Below are positions 16,917 to 46,545 of a stretch of DNA of 64,000 nucleotides, in pieces. The number at the start of each line of letters is the position of its first letter. Position 1 is the stretch's first letter. This stretch comes from Planobacterium oryzisoli (lineage in GTDB: Bacteria > Bacteroidota > Bacteroidia > Flavobacteriales > Weeksellaceae): the NCBI RefSeq assembly GCF_015354315.1, contig NZ_JADKYY010000003.1:124001-188000 (forward strand), given 5' to 3'. A program made the translations under genes and the position numbers. The notes under the pieces were generated by a model. That model made no database searches, was not told where the DNA came from, and saw nothing but the letters and a program-made list of their open reading frames with translations.

Positions 16917-16947
16917 GTTAGAAATATAAAACTGTTTAGTGTACATC

Positions 16948-17955
16948 ATGCAAACTTCCAATACAGCGACCCCTAGTAATTTCAATTTCCAGCGAAATGT
17001 GGCCTTAGCCGGAGTGTTGCTTTTTCTGGCAAAACTATTTGCTTGGCATACTACCGACTCCGATGCTATCTACTCCGACGCCATGGAAAGCATTGTTAAT
17101 ATTCTTGCTGCTTTTATGGGACTTTACTCGCTGTATCTTGCATCCAAGCCAAAAGACCACGACCATCCTTATGGGCACGGGAAAGTAGAGTTTATTACCT
17201 CGGGAATAGAAGGCGCCCTAATTATATTTGCTGGCATACTTATCATCCTCCAAGCCTCCGATTCGCTACTTCATGGAAACACACTGAAAAAATTGGATTG
17301 GGGGATTGCAATCATAGCAACCACGGCACTTCTCAACTATGTATTGGGATACCTTTCCATACAGAAAGGAAAACAGAGTCATTCCATGGTACTGGAGAGT
17401 TCGGGCAGACACTTGCAGACCGACACCCTATCGACCGTGGGCGTCGTTTTGAGCTTAATTTTGGTCAATCTTACAGGTTACTACTGGGTGGATGCGTTAA
17501 CTGCAATGGGGTTTGCACTCTTTATCATGTTTACTGGATACAAGATTGTGCGCAAATCTTTAAGTGGGATAATGGATGAAACCGACGTGGGCATGCTGGA
17601 AGAAATAGCGCAAATACTTTCCCAGTCCAGGCGCTCCCAGTGGGTGGACATTCATAATGTCCGTGTGCAGCAGCACGGCAGTGACATCCACGTGGACGGC
17701 CATATAACGCTCCCCTATTATTATACCCTACGCCACGCACACCAAGAAATGGAGGAGGTGATGCAGCTTTTGGAAGGACATACTACTCGGGCGATTGAAT
17801 TCAACCTTCACATGGACGATTGCAAAGAATTTTCCTGCAAGATATGCTCGTTAACTGAATGCCCACTCCGTACCCATCCTTTTGAAAAGCAGGTGGATTG
17901 GACGCTGGGCACAATCACCCAAAAGGACAAGCATACACTAGAGACTGCCTCATAA
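16948..17955 (+). CDS. Cation diffusion facilitator (metal efflux)
   Basis: Proton-driven exporter of divalent metals, 335 residues. It shows six membrane helices in the first 210 residues, the loop motif HDHPYGHGKVE, and the transport-site HxxxD motif (HLQTD) in helix 5, followed by the cytoplasmic ferredoxin-like domain. The C-terminus adds a cysteine-rich tail (CKEFSCKICSLTECP near residues 287-305) that could bind metal. I prefer the ATG at 16948 to a GTG at 16939. The metal (zinc, iron, manganese) cannot be assigned from sequence alone. Confidence 0.9.
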   Translation: MQTSNTATPSNFNFQRNVALAGVLLFLAKLFAWHTTDSDAIYSDAMESIVNILAAFMGLYSLYLASKPKDHDHPYGHGKVEFITSGIEGALIIFAGILIILQASDSLLHGNTLKKLDWGIAIIATTALLNYVLGYLSIQKGKQSHSMVLESSGRHLQTDTLSTVGVVLSLILVNLTGYYWVDALTAMGFALFIMFTGYKIVRKSLSGIMDETDVGMLEEIAQILSQSRRSQWVDIHNVRVQQHGSDIHVDGHITLPYYYTLRHAHQEMEEVMQLLEGHTTRAIEFNLHMDDCKEFSCKICSLTECPLRTHPFEKQVDWTLGTITQKDKHTLETAS

Positions 17956-18023: not shown

Positions 18024-19034
18024 ATGGCTACACCACAAACACGCATCACCAGTTTCTTTTATGGCTATTTTAATAAATACCCCGATGCGGTTGTGCCTCT
18101 CTCCCCAAGTGGATCGGCGAGAGAGAACTTCATCATACGTTCAGGAGAGGAAAAATTTGTAGCGACCTACAATGAGAACATTAAAGAGAACCATAGCTTC
18201 TTTTATTTCTGCAGCCTGTTTGAGACTCTGGAGCTTCCCGCTCCAAAGGTCTTTCACATAGATACCTCAGAGAAACTCTACCTACAATCTTATGTAGGAG
18301 ATGAAACGCTTTCCGATGTGATAGCTAAAGAAAAATCAAGTCCTCGCGTTCGCAATTTAGTACGCGTCTCCCTTGAAAATTTGGTAATGCTCCAGCAGCG
18401 AACGCTGGGTCAGGTAGACTACTCCAAAACCTTTGAATACACCTCCTACGATCGCCTCACCATCACCCACGATCTTTATTATTTCAAATTCTTTTTCGCA
18501 GATATCCTTGCAGTGCACTACCCAAAAGGGTTGCTTCTTAAAGAATTGGAGGCACTAAGTTCGCAGGTGTCGCAGCAAGGACCTAAAGTTCTGATGCTTC
18601 GTGATTTTCAGGCCAGGAACATTATGGTAGGCCCAACGAACAAGCCCTCCTTCATTGATTTTCAAGCCGCTATGGAAGGACCAGCGCTCTACGACGTAGT
18701 TTCGCTCCTTTATCAGGCCAAAGCCAATTTTTCTTCGGAGTTTCGGCAAGAAATGTTGGAGTATTTCATAGCACTTTATCCTAAAGGAGTTGAACAAGAA
18801 CAGCTACGTAGATCATTGGAACCACTGGTACTACTTCGCCAGTTGCAGGTTCTAGGAGCCTACGGCTTACGGGGCCTGATTGAGAGAAAGCCTCACTTTC
18901 TAGAAAGTATTCCGCAGGGAATTCGAAACGTAATACTTACTGCCAACCAATGGACTGGCATGAATAAGTACCCCACTCTGCTGGGAATTATAAACCAACT
19001 TGAAGCTATTTACCAAAAAAAATATGCACGATAA
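18024..19034 (+). CDS. AmgK-like sugar kinase (aminoglycoside phosphotransferase fold)
   Basis: A 336-residue kinase of the APH fold. The catalytic loop reads LRDFQARNIM (192-201; D194 catalytic, N199 magnesium) and the metal motif IDFQAAMEGPALYD (211-224). The IDFQ..GP..YD pattern is that of AmgK, the anomeric kinase that phosphorylates MurNAc/GlcNAc at C1 in peptidoglycan recycling. The usual histidine before RDF is replaced by leucine. The next two genes encode a RapZ C-terminal domain and a MurU-like uridylyltransferase, which strengthens the assignment. It overlaps the next gene by 11 bases. The substrate is inferred from motif and context, not shown. Confidence 0.82.
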   Translation: MATPQTRITSFFYGYFNKYPDAVVPLSPSGSARENFIIRSGEEKFVATYNENIKENHSFFYFCSLFETLELPAPKVFHIDTSEKLYLQSYVGDETLSDVIAKEKSSPRVRNLVRVSLENLVMLQQRTLGQVDYSKTFEYTSYDRLTITHDLYYFKFFFADILAVHYPKGLLLKELEALSSQVSQQGPKVLMLRDFQARNIMVGPTNKPSFIDFQAAMEGPALYDVVSLLYQAKANFSSEFRQEMLEYFIALYPKGVEQEQLRRSLEPLVLLRQLQVLGAYGLRGLIERKPHFLESIPQGIRNVILTANQWTGMNKYPTLLGIINQLEAIYQKKYAR

Positions 19035-19434
19035 ACTACACATTGAGATTCAGAGTTTTTCTTACAAGAAAGGCGGAATTCCTACCGACCAGACAGAGAA
19101 CGGAGGAGGGTTCGTATTCGACTGCCGCGGTATTTTAAACCCTGGAAGGATTGAGCGCTATAAAGAGCAGACGGGCAGGGATATTGAAGTTGCCCACTAT
19201 TTAGAGGAGAACACTCTGATGCCCCAATTCCTGCAACATATTACAGCCTTACTTTCAATTACCATTGATAATTATATCGCACGTGATTTTAAGAGCCTGA
19301 AAGTCAATTTCGGTTGTACCGGCGGGCAGCACCGCTCCGTTTATTGCGCGGACTATACTGCGAAATTTATTGAACAAAAATACCCCATGGTAGCGGTAAC
19401 AGTACGCCACAATGAACAACCTCAATTAATTTAA
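19024..19434 (+). CDS. Stand-alone RapZ C-terminal domain protein
   Basis: A 136-residue protein that matches only the C-terminal domain of RapZ: FDCRGILNPGR (32-42) and the signature GCTGGQHRSVY (97-107). In E. coli this domain binds glucosamine-6-phosphate and the small RNA GlmZ. The N-terminal P-loop ATPase domain of full RapZ is absent. I chose the ATG at 19024, since the longer TTG frame adds unrelated residues. The gene overlaps the kinase stop by 11 bases, implying coupled translation. It is likely an amino-sugar-phosphate sensor; RNA binding is uncertain. Confidence 0.85.
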   Translation: MHDKLHIEIQSFSYKKGGIPTDQTENGGGFVFDCRGILNPGRIERYKEQTGRDIEVAHYLEENTLMPQFLQHITALLSITIDNYIARDFKSLKVNFGCTGGQHRSVYCADYTAKFIEQKYPMVAVTVRHNEQPQLI

Positions 19435-19476
19435 GTATATTGCCTCTACAAAAATCCAGATAACTTACTTTAAAGA

Positions 19477-20187
19477 ATGAAAGCCATGATATTTGCGGCC
19501 GGAAAAGGCACTCGGCTGCAACCCTTTACGTTGCACCATCCCAAAGCCTTGGCGAAGGTCAATGGAGTCGCATTACTGGAGCGGAACATCCTTTATCTTA
19601 AGTCTTTTGGAATTGAAGAAATCATAATTAACATACACCATTTCGGAGAGCAAATTGAGGCATTTTTAGACGCGAACAAAGACTTCGGCTGTACCATTCA
19701 TCTCTCCGCCGAAAAAGAGCTCCTAGAAACCGGTGGCGGGATGATGCTTGCAAAACATTTCCTACAAGGAAGCGAAAGCTTTTTAGTTATGAATGCAGAT
19801 ATCCTTACAGACCTGGACCTTCGTCCGCTGATAGCACAGCACCAGGCAAGTGGAGACCTTGCCACTTTAGCTGTCTCTTCACGTACGAGCAGCCGCTCAC
19901 TTCTCTTTGACAAAAACAACCATTTGTGTGGATGGAAAAACACTGCCACTGCCGAAGAAATTCGCTCTGCCAGTAGAGCACCAGTAACTAGTTATGCATT
20001 TAGTGGTATACACTGTATACAACCTACACTTCTTACACTGCCACATCCCAAGGGCGCTTTCTCTATAATGAATTCGTATTTGGACTTAATGGACAAGTTT
20101 CCGATAGGTGCCTTTGTGCACCATTCCGTTTTGGTGGATGTGGGCAAAATAAGTTCCATTGCAGAGGCCGAAAAACATTTTAAATAA
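19477..20187 (+). CDS. MurU-like sugar-1-phosphate nucleotidyltransferase
   Basis: A 236-residue nucleotidyltransferase with the signature MIFAAGKGTRLQPFT (4-18), the PKAL motif and ETGGGMM near residue 86, as in MurU (MurNAc-1-phosphate uridylyltransferase). In the recycling route AmgK makes MurNAc-1-P and MurU turns it into UDP-MurNAc, bypassing MurA/MurB. A mannose-1-P guanylyltransferase-like activity is the alternative, but the short length without a C-terminal beta-helix and the neighbouring kinase favour the MurU reading. It sits 42 bases after the RapZ-domain gene, and its stop codon is followed at once by the next ATG. Confidence 0.85.
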   Translation: MKAMIFAAGKGTRLQPFTLHHPKALAKVNGVALLERNILYLKSFGIEEIIINIHHFGEQIEAFLDANKDFGCTIHLSAEKELLETGGGMMLAKHFLQGSESFLVMNADILTDLDLRPLIAQHQASGDLATLAVSSRTSSRSLLFDKNNHLCGWKNTATAEEIRSASRAPVTSYAFSGIHCIQPTLLTLPHPKGAFSIMNSYLDLMDKFPIGAFVHHSVLVDVGKISSIAEAEKHFK

Positions 20188-20946
20188 ATGAGTAAAATTA
20201 AAAGAGGTAAGGGTCTTACCAAAGTAATATCAGGACCTGAAACAGAAATAGACCAGCGTGTCCAATACCATTTTCAGGAAAAAACCTGGGATGAGACAAT
20301 CACTAAAGACAGTTGGATGGTCTTTAAAGTGATGGCAGAGTTTGTAGATGGCTACGAAAAAATGGCAAAGATTGGTCCTTGCGTTTCCATCTTCGGTTCT
20401 GCACGAGTAAAGGAAGGGGATCCGTCGTATGAAATGGCGGTGGAAATCGCTGAGAAAATTACCCGACTGGGATTTGGGATTATCACTGGTGGCGGCCCGG
20501 GTATAATGGAAGCCGGTAACAGGGGTGCCAGACAAGCGGGTGGAAAATCCATTGGCCTAAATATTGACCTTCCCTTTGAGCAACATTTCAATCCCTATAT
20601 AGACAAACACTACTCAATGGACTACAACTATTTCTTTGTCCGTAAAGTTATGTTTGTGAAATATTCCCAAGGATTTGTAGTAATGCCGGGTGGGTTTGGC
20701 ACCTTAGATGAGCTTTCCGAAGCCATCACCCTTATTCAGACGCTTAAGATTGCGCGTTTCCCCATTGTTCTGGTCGGCTCCAAATTCTGGAACGGACTCC
20801 TGGACTGGTTTAAAAATACTTTGCTGGAAGAAGGCATGATATCGGAAGAAGATCTTAAACTCTACCGCGTGGTGGATACCGCTGATGAGGCCGTTGCACA
20901 CATCAAGGCGTTCTATGATAAATACTCTATAAATGTAAATTTCTAG
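20188..20946 (+). CDS. LOG-family nucleotide 5'-monophosphate phosphoribohydrolase
   Basis: A 252-residue Rossmann-like protein of the LOG/TIGR00730 family, often misnamed lysine decarboxylase. It carries GGGPGIMEAGNRGA (101-114) and the active-site motif PGGFGTLDE (167-175). Family members release ribose-5-phosphate from purine nucleoside monophosphates; in bacteria this can be a nucleotide-salvage role rather than cytokinin synthesis. It starts on the base after the preceding stop, so it is the last gene of the kinase/RapZ/MurU cluster. Confidence 0.9.
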   Translation: MSKIKRGKGLTKVISGPETEIDQRVQYHFQEKTWDETITKDSWMVFKVMAEFVDGYEKMAKIGPCVSIFGSARVKEGDPSYEMAVEIAEKITRLGFGIITGGGPGIMEAGNRGARQAGGKSIGLNIDLPFEQHFNPYIDKHYSMDYNYFFVRKVMFVKYSQGFVVMPGGFGTLDELSEAITLIQTLKIARFPIVLVGSKFWNGLLDWFKNTLLEEGMISEEDLKLYRVVDTADEAVAHIKAFYDKYSINVNF

Positions 20947-46248: not shown

Positions 46249-46330
46249 GCGGATGTGGTGTAATTGGTAGCCACGCCAGACTTAGGATCTGGTGCCGTGA
46301 GGCGTGGGGGTTCGAGTCCCTTCATCCGCA
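46249..46330 (+). tRNA. tRNA-Leu (anticodon TAG)
   Basis: 82 bases. Acceptor stem GCGGATG/CATCCGC with discriminator A, anticodon stem CCAGA/TCTGG around loop CTTAGGA, a long variable arm and GGTTCGAGTCC in the T arm. CCA is not encoded. Confidence 0.96.
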
Positions 46331-46375
46331 CTTTTATAAAAAAATTTCTAAACTTGTTTTAGAAATTTTTTGTTT

Positions 46376-46448
46376 GCGAAAATAGCTCAGCTGGTAGAGC
46401 ACAACCTTGCCAAGGTTGGGGTCGCGGGTTCGAGTCCCGTTTTTCGCT
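46376..46448 (+). tRNA. tRNA-Gly (anticodon GCC)
   Basis: 73 bases. Acceptor GCGAAAA/TTTTCGC with discriminator T, anticodon stem CAACC/GGTTG around TTGCCAA, and a standard T arm. CCA is not encoded. Confidence 0.96.
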
Positions 46449-46461
46449 CATTTTCTACCTT

Positions 46462-46545
46462 GCCCTGGTGGTGGAATTGGTAGACACGCAGGACTTAAAA
46501 TCCTGTGTCCGCAAGGACGTACGGGTTCAAGTCCCGTCTGGGGTA
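46462..46545 (+). tRNA. tRNA-Leu (anticodon TAA)
   Basis: 84 bases. Acceptor GCCCTGG/CTGGGGT with discriminator A, anticodon loop CTTAAAA, a class II variable arm (GTGTCCGCAAGGACGT) and GGTTCAAGTCC. Third and last tRNA of the cluster. Confidence 0.96.

Follow-up and report, generated by a model that had tools for sequence, protein, structure and literature searches.

What is the C-terminal domain of RapZ, the small-RNA regulator of Escherichia coli, doing between a sugar kinase and a uridylyltransferase in a member of the Bacteroidota? The question is raised by a locus in a 64,000-nucleotide stretch of Planobacterium oryzisoli DNA (contig NZ_JADKYY010000003.1, positions 124,001 to 188,000; hereafter the window), which comes from an assembly of 2.1 Mb in 20 contigs that is 99.98% complete. 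Three closely packed genes there encode an AmgK-like kinase, a stand-alone RapZ C-terminal domain (RapZ_C) and a MurU-like transferase, and our analysis confirmed the positions given for them in a preliminary description of the window (Table 1). That description further held that the kinase and the transferase form a salvage pair for UDP-N-acetylmuramic acid (UDP-MurNAc), and that RapZ_C is a sensor that may gate one of them. Overall, the observation stands; the pathway half of this interpretation is well supported, and the sensor half is a proposal that faces a strong rival, itself suggested by the same sequence.

The trio very probably rebuilds UDP-MurNAc from recycled sugar. For RapZ_C we tentatively favor, at a little less than an even chance, a role within this salvage module as a cysteine-dependent phosphatase of MurNAc-6-phosphate (MurNAc-6P). 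What was observed is the gene order, the fusions, the conservation, the pocket motif and the co-occurrence with the absence of MurQ and of MurA and MurB, and from these we infer the substrates and the activity.

The kinase, RapZ_C and MurU form a conserved and often fused group

A neighborhood survey across Bacteroidota found the trio to be conserved and often fused. In a phylum sample of 148 Bacteroidota genomes, a Pfam search for RapZ_C was positive in 20, the window's genome included, and in all 20 loci the domain adjoins or is fused to a kinase of the window's type. The two share one frame of 475-513 amino acids (aa) in 16 of these loci, and RapZ_C is a separate gene in the other four (L007, L019, L020 and the window's own locus, L018). 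A MurU homologue lies inside the 3.4-kb locus in 15 of the RapZ_C genomes and elsewhere, at 259-342 bits, in the remaining five (G013, G034, G131, G128 and G017), and thus was found in all 20.

In the window's own family, RapZ_C was detected in 79 of 80 genomes and in all 33 genera. Its frame is of stand-alone size in 77 of the 79 positives, the exceptions being G220 (487 aa) and G282 (a partial match). Of 20 loci fetched from this search, 19 contain the kinase and 16 contain MurU; L128 and L136, which belong to the four loci without MurU, stop early at a contig end. Because of the invariable association with the kinase in the phylum sample and the near-universal occurrence of RapZ_C in the own family, the grouping is beyond chance. 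As a separate observation, the frame in G220 (C26:57049-57426) is the sole RapZ_C frame of fused length in the own-family sample.

In a wider scan, which used the fused alignment and took a single genome from each species (GTDB 220), at least 587 of at least 592 pattern matches were confirmed, and the best 80 loci were kept. Their titles are mostly Bacteroidota, with some Acidobacteriaceae, Elusimicrobia, Candidatus Delongbacteria, Ignavibacteria and Calditrichia; the titles outside Bacteroidota all belong to metagenome-assembled genomes (MAGs) and need care, and two loci titled Ignavibacteria (L045 and L051) look mislabelled and seem to belong to the family of G132, which is considered below. 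Among these best 80 loci, a MurU homologue was fused, or lay on the same strand no more than 1.5 kb downstream, in 55. Of the 25 loci without a downstream MurU, three (L046, L079 and L085) stop less than 0.5 kb away, and two more (L061 and L098) have MurU nearby on the opposite strand. When open reading frames (ORFs) of at least 90 aa within 6 kb of these loci were clustered, no other widely shared same-strand neighbor was found, and the other clusters spanned at most nine of the 80 loci. The two exceptions, spanning 58 and 22 loci, are ORF clusters near the same genes, nearly all of whose members are on the opposite strand. In one locus (L094:9986-12268, + strand; a MAG titled Bacteroidaceae RGIG7470), the kinase, RapZ_C and MurU follow one another in a single 760-aa frame.

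The preliminary description had seen support for stoichiometric expression in the 11-base overlap of the kinase and RapZ_C genes. The overlap is present, but it is not conserved, as the two genes are separated by gaps of 42 and 66 bases in the relatives L019 and L020. Their linkage is supported far more strongly by the fusion of the two in other lineages.

The flanking enzymes are closest to AmgK and MurU

The kinase ORF ends at a stop codon at 19032-19034 and may start at ATG 18024 or ATG 18003, its longest reading beginning at TTG 17898. The protein matches the Pfam APH family (E 2.4e-16), its two top NCBIfam models are both AmgK (NF045759, 59.5 bits; NF045698, 48.5 bits), and its best PDB sequence match is 3csv (1.2e-11). 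The motif RDFQARN, which we take to be the catalytic loop from the role known in the APH family, and the FIDFQ segment, presumably metal-binding, contain invariant residues (Table 1); the kinase segment FIDFQAAMEGPALYD begins at 18651. The window's kinase was not a member of the 46-homologue alignment and has the same active-site residues. The catalytic Asp and Asn and the metal Asp of an APH-fold kinase were found in the sequence, with the fold taken from a model of the fused kinase-RapZ_C homologue L008 (pLDDT 91.8), whose best structural match is again 3csv (Z 28.8, 310 residues). Other APH-fold kinases that the model resembles include N-acetylhexosamine 1-kinase and glucosamine kinase (Z about 20). 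The modeled fold is consistent with a sugar kinase and does not fix the substrate.

The transferase matches Pfam NTP_transferase (2e-17). Its top NCBIfam model is MurU (NF045761, 146.1 bits), the next one (86.4 bits) is also a MurU model, and its best PDB chain is 8hhd (9.4e-28), which is named N-acetylmuramate alpha-1-phosphate uridylyltransferase. The signature GxGTR..P, PK, NxD and DxG is invariant across 15 aligned sequences, the window's included.

In the sampled genomes, MurA and MurB are jointly absent only where RapZ_C is present

Of the 148 genomes in the phylum sample, 145 have MurA (TIGR01072) above the cut-off, and one (G104) carries it as two pieces. Only weak matches were found in G115 and G132, both of which are RapZ_C-positive. 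The family of G132 was represented by 61 genomes, of which 22 have RapZ_C and 14 have no MurA-level match. RapZ_C was present in 11 of these 14 and in 11 of the 47 others (Fisher p 3e-4, without correction for phylogeny).

A search for MurB covered 20 selected genomes, of which 15 are MurA-less. Both enzymes were absent from nine (G115, G132, G151, G161, G170, G172, G182, G191 and G201), which belong to six genera in two families and of which several are fragmented MAGs, G182 having 8% contamination and G151 being 82% complete. All nine are RapZ_C-positive, and the same holds for all eight double absences within the family of G132 (p 1e-4; by genus 5/5, p 0.002; likewise uncorrected). A fused kinase-RapZ_C lies beside MurU in the six of the nine whose loci were examined (G115, G132, G151, G161, G170 and G182); a contig end cuts the arrangement in G170, and in G161 MurU has an open frame of 233 aa that scores 311.8 bits. 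In the other three of the nine (G172, G191 and G201), a RapZ_C frame of fused length was observed. Three further RapZ_C-positive, MurA-less genomes (G153, G158 and G178) keep MurB whole or in part. The MurA-less genomes without RapZ_C (G164, G157 and G185; 93, 81 and 78% complete, respectively) all keep MurB, and because of this their MurA may simply be unassembled.

In the nine genomes that lack MurA and MurB, the module is probably the route to UDP-MurNAc, and the simplest reading is that it makes UDP-MurNAc and can be the sole source of it. These genomes, the conserved and fused trio and the presence of MurU in every RapZ_C genome of the phylum sample support the salvage pair that had been proposed. 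The window's genome has both MurA and MurB, so that in its organism the module is a recycling shortcut. The accompanying claim, that the pair works without MurA, is chemically correct, but the organism from which it was drawn keeps the enzyme.

The curated cut-offs weigh against this assignment. The kinase scores far below those of the AmgK models (550 bits for NF045759 and 500 bits for NF045698), and the transferase stays below the 250 bits set for NF045761. Both could then act on a sugar other than MurNAc, for example one of lipopolysaccharide or capsule, and the kinase fold is common to N-acetylhexosamine 1-kinase and glucosamine kinase. We nevertheless regard such a sugar as very improbable: AmgK and MurU are the closest named families, the joint loss of MurA and MurB in the sample was confined to genomes with RapZ_C, and MurU is the one widely shared neighbor among the best 80 of the at least 587 loci.

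A phosphatase step lacks an assigned enzyme

AnmK was present in 104 of the 148 genomes. MurQ was scored as present when its best match had E < 1e-20, which was the case in 105 genomes (99 above the curated cut-off); in the remaining 43 the matches are all weak (E 5e-12 to 1e-4). RapZ_C occurred in all 7 genomes with AnmK and no MurQ, compared with 8 of the 97 with both, 5 of the 36 with neither and 0 of the 8 with MurQ only. The window's genome has AnmK (C1:171616) and GlmS and is scored MurQ-negative, its weak MurQ match falling within GlmS (C15:146849-148696). Since AnmK yields MurNAc-6P and MurQ is absent, a MurNAc-6P phosphatase is expected in the AnmK-positive, MurQ-negative genomes. In Pseudomonas, MupP takes the phosphate off before AmgK acts (PMC5371407). 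Orthologues of MupP were sought with the broad HAD model TIGR01449 only, which gave sub-cut-off matches in all 20 RapZ_C genomes; the best match per genome scored 44-154 bits (86.6 in the window's genome), none above the 180-bit cut-off.

RapZ_C has a phosphate loop of the cysteine phosphatase type

The RapZ_C protein is nearly a whole PF22740 domain (PapZ_C; positions 2-119 of 121, E 4e-31, 108.2 bits against a cut-off of 27), which is its only Pfam match. Its best NCBIfam model is RapZ, at 95.6 bits under a 244-bit cut-off, and it matches the C-terminal domain (CTD) of E. coli RapZ in sequence (8.8e-12). The N-terminal domain of RapZ (PF03668) had no match across the window's whole genome. 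An AlphaFold2 model of RapZ_C (53 sequences, pLDDT 92.7) resembles E. coli RapZ closely (Z 19.9, root-mean-square deviation (rmsd) 1.8, 125 residues). The protein carries the motif GCTGGQHRSVY, and in the model a strand ends at C98, the loop comprises residues 99-103 and a helix begins at R104. RapZ_C therefore has the C(X)5R(S/T) loop, leading from a strand into a helix, of protein tyrosine phosphatases (PTPs) and dual-specificity phosphatases.

The motif CTGG[QR]HRSV is kept in all 49 loci that were found by the Pfam profile, that is, loci not selected by motif. The 80 loci of the wider scan were found with patterns containing GCTGGQHR, and conservation of the motif there is not counted as evidence. 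The pocket loop is also among the longest invariant blocks of RapZ_C, in an alignment set that was partly found by that motif. These results bear on whether RapZ_C might be mainly a structural or dimerization domain for the kinase, with a leftover phosphate pocket. The E. coli RapZ CTD forms swapped dimers and dimerizes by itself (PMC7073468, PMC7199280), and the steady linkage to the kinase across many loci would suit such a part. We think it improbable, given the invariance of the loop and the fact that 77 of the 79 positive own-family genomes encode RapZ_C as a protein of its own.

As far as the sequence indicates, RapZ_C is unlikely to act on RNA in the way that E. coli RapZ does, because His190 is replaced and the basic tail is missing. 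His190 is needed for GlmZ handling in E. coli; of the 49 Pfam-profile loci, 47 have Gly at its position and 2 have Tyr. The RNA-binding tail is absent from RapZ_C, and the window's protein ends in RHNEQPQLI. RNA-based regulation was rejected as a candidate: no Rfam match to GlmY or GlmZ was found within the window (only three tRNAs matched), the rest of the genome not having been searched for them. The suggestion that the organism has no need for GlmY and GlmZ is thus supported in part, by the residues missing from RapZ_C and by the search of the window.

RapZ_C as a phosphatase or as a sensor

In the reading that we prefer, AnmK would convert anhydro-MurNAc to MurNAc-6P, RapZ_C would act as a cysteine-dependent amino-sugar-6-phosphate phosphatase and release MurNAc, the APH-fold kinase would form MurNAc-1-phosphate, and the MurU-like enzyme would produce UDP-MurNAc. 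RapZ_C would thereby fill the job that the unrelated HAD phosphatase MupP has in Pseudomonas, and fusion or tight packing would hold consecutive steps together. The strict nucleophile-type loop, the gap in the pathway and the fusion to the enzyme of the next step argue for a phosphatase, as do several hints from E. coli. The E. coli RapZ pocket was occupied by sulphate or malonate, bound via H190, T248, G249, H252 and R253 (PMC5737377). Both C247A and C247S abolish activity, the SH group having been suggested as possibly catalytic, and a CTD crystal with glucosamine-6-phosphate (GlcN6P) probably contained a 'chemically transformed product' (PMC9841335). That the pocket is homologous to the PTP phosphatase loop has already been stated, and hydrolysis of GlcN6P has been proposed (PMC7199280).

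Several points weigh against a phosphatase. All E. coli pocket variants tested, the C247 mutants included, failed in a GlmZ pull-down (PMC9841335); because RNA binding was lost too, the C247 mutants alone are no proof of catalysis. No report of RapZ phosphatase activity was found in the excerpts of the literature consulted. HAD-2 phosphatases occur in all 20 RapZ_C genomes, and any of them could be the MurNAc-6P phosphatase. Eight RapZ_C genomes possess MurQ, and five (G019, G031, G116, G124 and G140) have RapZ_C together with neither AnmK nor MurQ; the co-occurrence statistics for AnmK, MurQ and RapZ_C are not corrected for phylogeny. The whole-fold similarity of RapZ_C to the dual-specificity phosphatases DUSP10, DUSP18 and DUSP1 is weak and not significant (Z 4.9, 87-92 residues, rmsd 3.4-3.7). 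Phosphofructokinase scores higher (Z about 7), and that match is itself 'possibly a common arrangement' on the scale of the tool. Finally, the E. coli RapZ CTD binds GlcN6P with a dissociation constant of 10 nM, and RapZ acts as a sensor (PMC7073468).

This binding, together with the regulatory history of the RapZ family, speaks for RapZ_C being instead an allosteric amino-sugar-phosphate sensor, in which bound GlcN6P or MurNAc-6P would tune the kinase so that salvage matches de novo supply. We consider such a sensor plausible though doubtful. Fusion to the kinase suits allostery. The window's genome contains GlmS, which makes GlcN6P, and 17 of 20 genomes checked have it above the cut-off, a distribution with which loss of GlmS says little as a test of sensing. 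A pure sensor has no obvious need for the invariant Cys at the nucleophile position of the C(X)5R-S loop (49 of 49 loci), and it would leave the AnmK-positive, MurQ-negative genomes still requiring a MurNAc-6P phosphatase. In addition, His190 of the E. coli pocket is absent, and RapZ_C persists where MurA and MurB are missing and there is thus no de novo MurNAc to balance against.

Because the phosphatase-type loop is intact, with all its key residues, and the phosphatase step lacks an assigned enzyme, a catalytic role would fit at least as well as a sensor. Gating of the kinase or the transferase by RapZ_C, as put forward in the preliminary description, was not established. A mixed answer, in which slow hydrolysis also tunes the kinase, is possible.

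The phosphatase reading can be carried further. RapZ CTDs might ancestrally be cysteine-dependent amino-sugar-6-phosphate phosphatases, lying beside or fused to AmgK in a three-step line from MurNAc-6P to UDP-MurNAc in Bacteroidota (and in some other phyla if the MAG titles hold), with the E. coli regulator RapZ a later re-use. We find this broader proposal more doubtful still; re-use of a metabolic enzyme would explain the catalytic-looking Cys247 of E. coli RapZ. If these readings are true, a MurNAc-6P phosphatase would be named for Bacteroidota cell-wall recycling, the RapZ CTD would be given a chemistry, and an origin would be suggested for the E. coli riboregulator. The naturally fused proteins make the function of the RapZ pocket testable by a simple enzyme assay.

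Layout of the locus and neighboring genes

Table 1. Features of the locus, with positions in the window
Feature	Position	Strand	Basis
AmgK-like anomeric sugar kinase, APH fold	18024..19034	+	Pfam, NCBIfam and PDB sequence matches
Putative catalytic loop of the kinase, RDFQARN	18600..18620	+	Sequence; R, D, F, R and N invariant in 46 aligned homologues
Putative metal-binding segment of the kinase, FIDFQ	18651..18665	+	Sequence; D and Q invariant in 46 aligned homologues
Overlap of kinase stop and RapZ_C start, 11 bases	19024..19034	+	
Stand-alone RapZ C-terminal domain (RapZ_C), 136 aa	19024..19434	+	PF22740, E. coli RapZ match, model
Gly41 in place of E. coli RapZ His190	19144..19146	+	Alignment with E. 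coli RapZ
C(X)5R-S loop CTGGQHRS (C98 to S105), predicted phosphate pocket of the cysteine phosphatase type	19315..19338	+	Sequence, model
MurU-like N-acetylmuramate-1-phosphate uridylyltransferase	19477..20187	+	NF045761, PDB 8hhd, signature residues

A LOG-type gene annotated as 'possible lysine decarboxylase' (20188-20946, +) begins right after the MurU stop codon. A homologue was found in 11 of 23 own-family loci, for which short flanks were examined; the other loci that were searched have none. Immediately upstream of the kinase lies a cation-efflux family gene (16939-17955, +), which among the same 23 loci occurs only at the window's own. A cluster of three tRNA genes (46249-46545, +) accounts for the sole Rfam matches in the window at gathering thresholds.

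Comparison with known systems

The closest known pathway is the AnmK-MupP-AmgK-MurU salvage of Pseudomonas (PMC5371407), which likewise has an APH-fold anomeric kinase and a MurU-type uridylyltransferase, with AnmK present and MurQ absent. The locus described here differs in having RapZ_C between the two enzymes, often fused, and in a kinase and a transferase that score below the AmgK and MurU cut-offs. Whereas MupP is a MurNAc-6P phosphatase of the HAD fold, RapZ_C has the RapZ fold and matches PF22740 only.

The CTD of E. coli RapZ is the same domain (PF22740) and shares the pocket residues T248, G249, H252 and R253 as well as C247. Unlike E. coli RapZ, the window's protein has no N-terminal domain or basic tail, has Gly for His190 and an extra NGGG-type segment, and is linked to a sugar kinase. 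With PTPs and dual-specificity phosphatases, RapZ_C shares a C(X)5R-S phosphate loop that connects a strand to a helix, although the whole-fold similarity is weak (Z 4.9). The link between RapZ and the PTP loop has been published (PMC7199280). What is new, within the excerpts and papers searched, is the setting, namely attachment to AmgK and MurU where a MurNAc-6P phosphatase is needed; a literature search covering open-licence papers found none that treats RapZ and AmgK together.

Within the Bacteroidota, Tannerella forsythia offers a precedent, as it has neither MurA nor MurB and is regarded as dependent on the AmgK-MurU pair (PMC7670621, PMC5790795, PMC13041923). It is without murA and murB and also without glmS and glmU (PMC5790795), and its conversion of MurNAc to UDP-MurNAc is said to go via AmgK and MurU (PMC7670621). 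Its AmgK and MurU, expressed in E. coli, served as a positive control for cell-wall labelling with a MurNAc probe (PMC13041923). In L081, from a record titled Tannerella sp., the kinase and RapZ_C are fused and MurU follows 11 bases downstream. Independently of whether RapZ_C is a phosphatase, several genera that carry the module are predicted to be unable to make MurNAc and to live on salvage, as published for T. forsythia.

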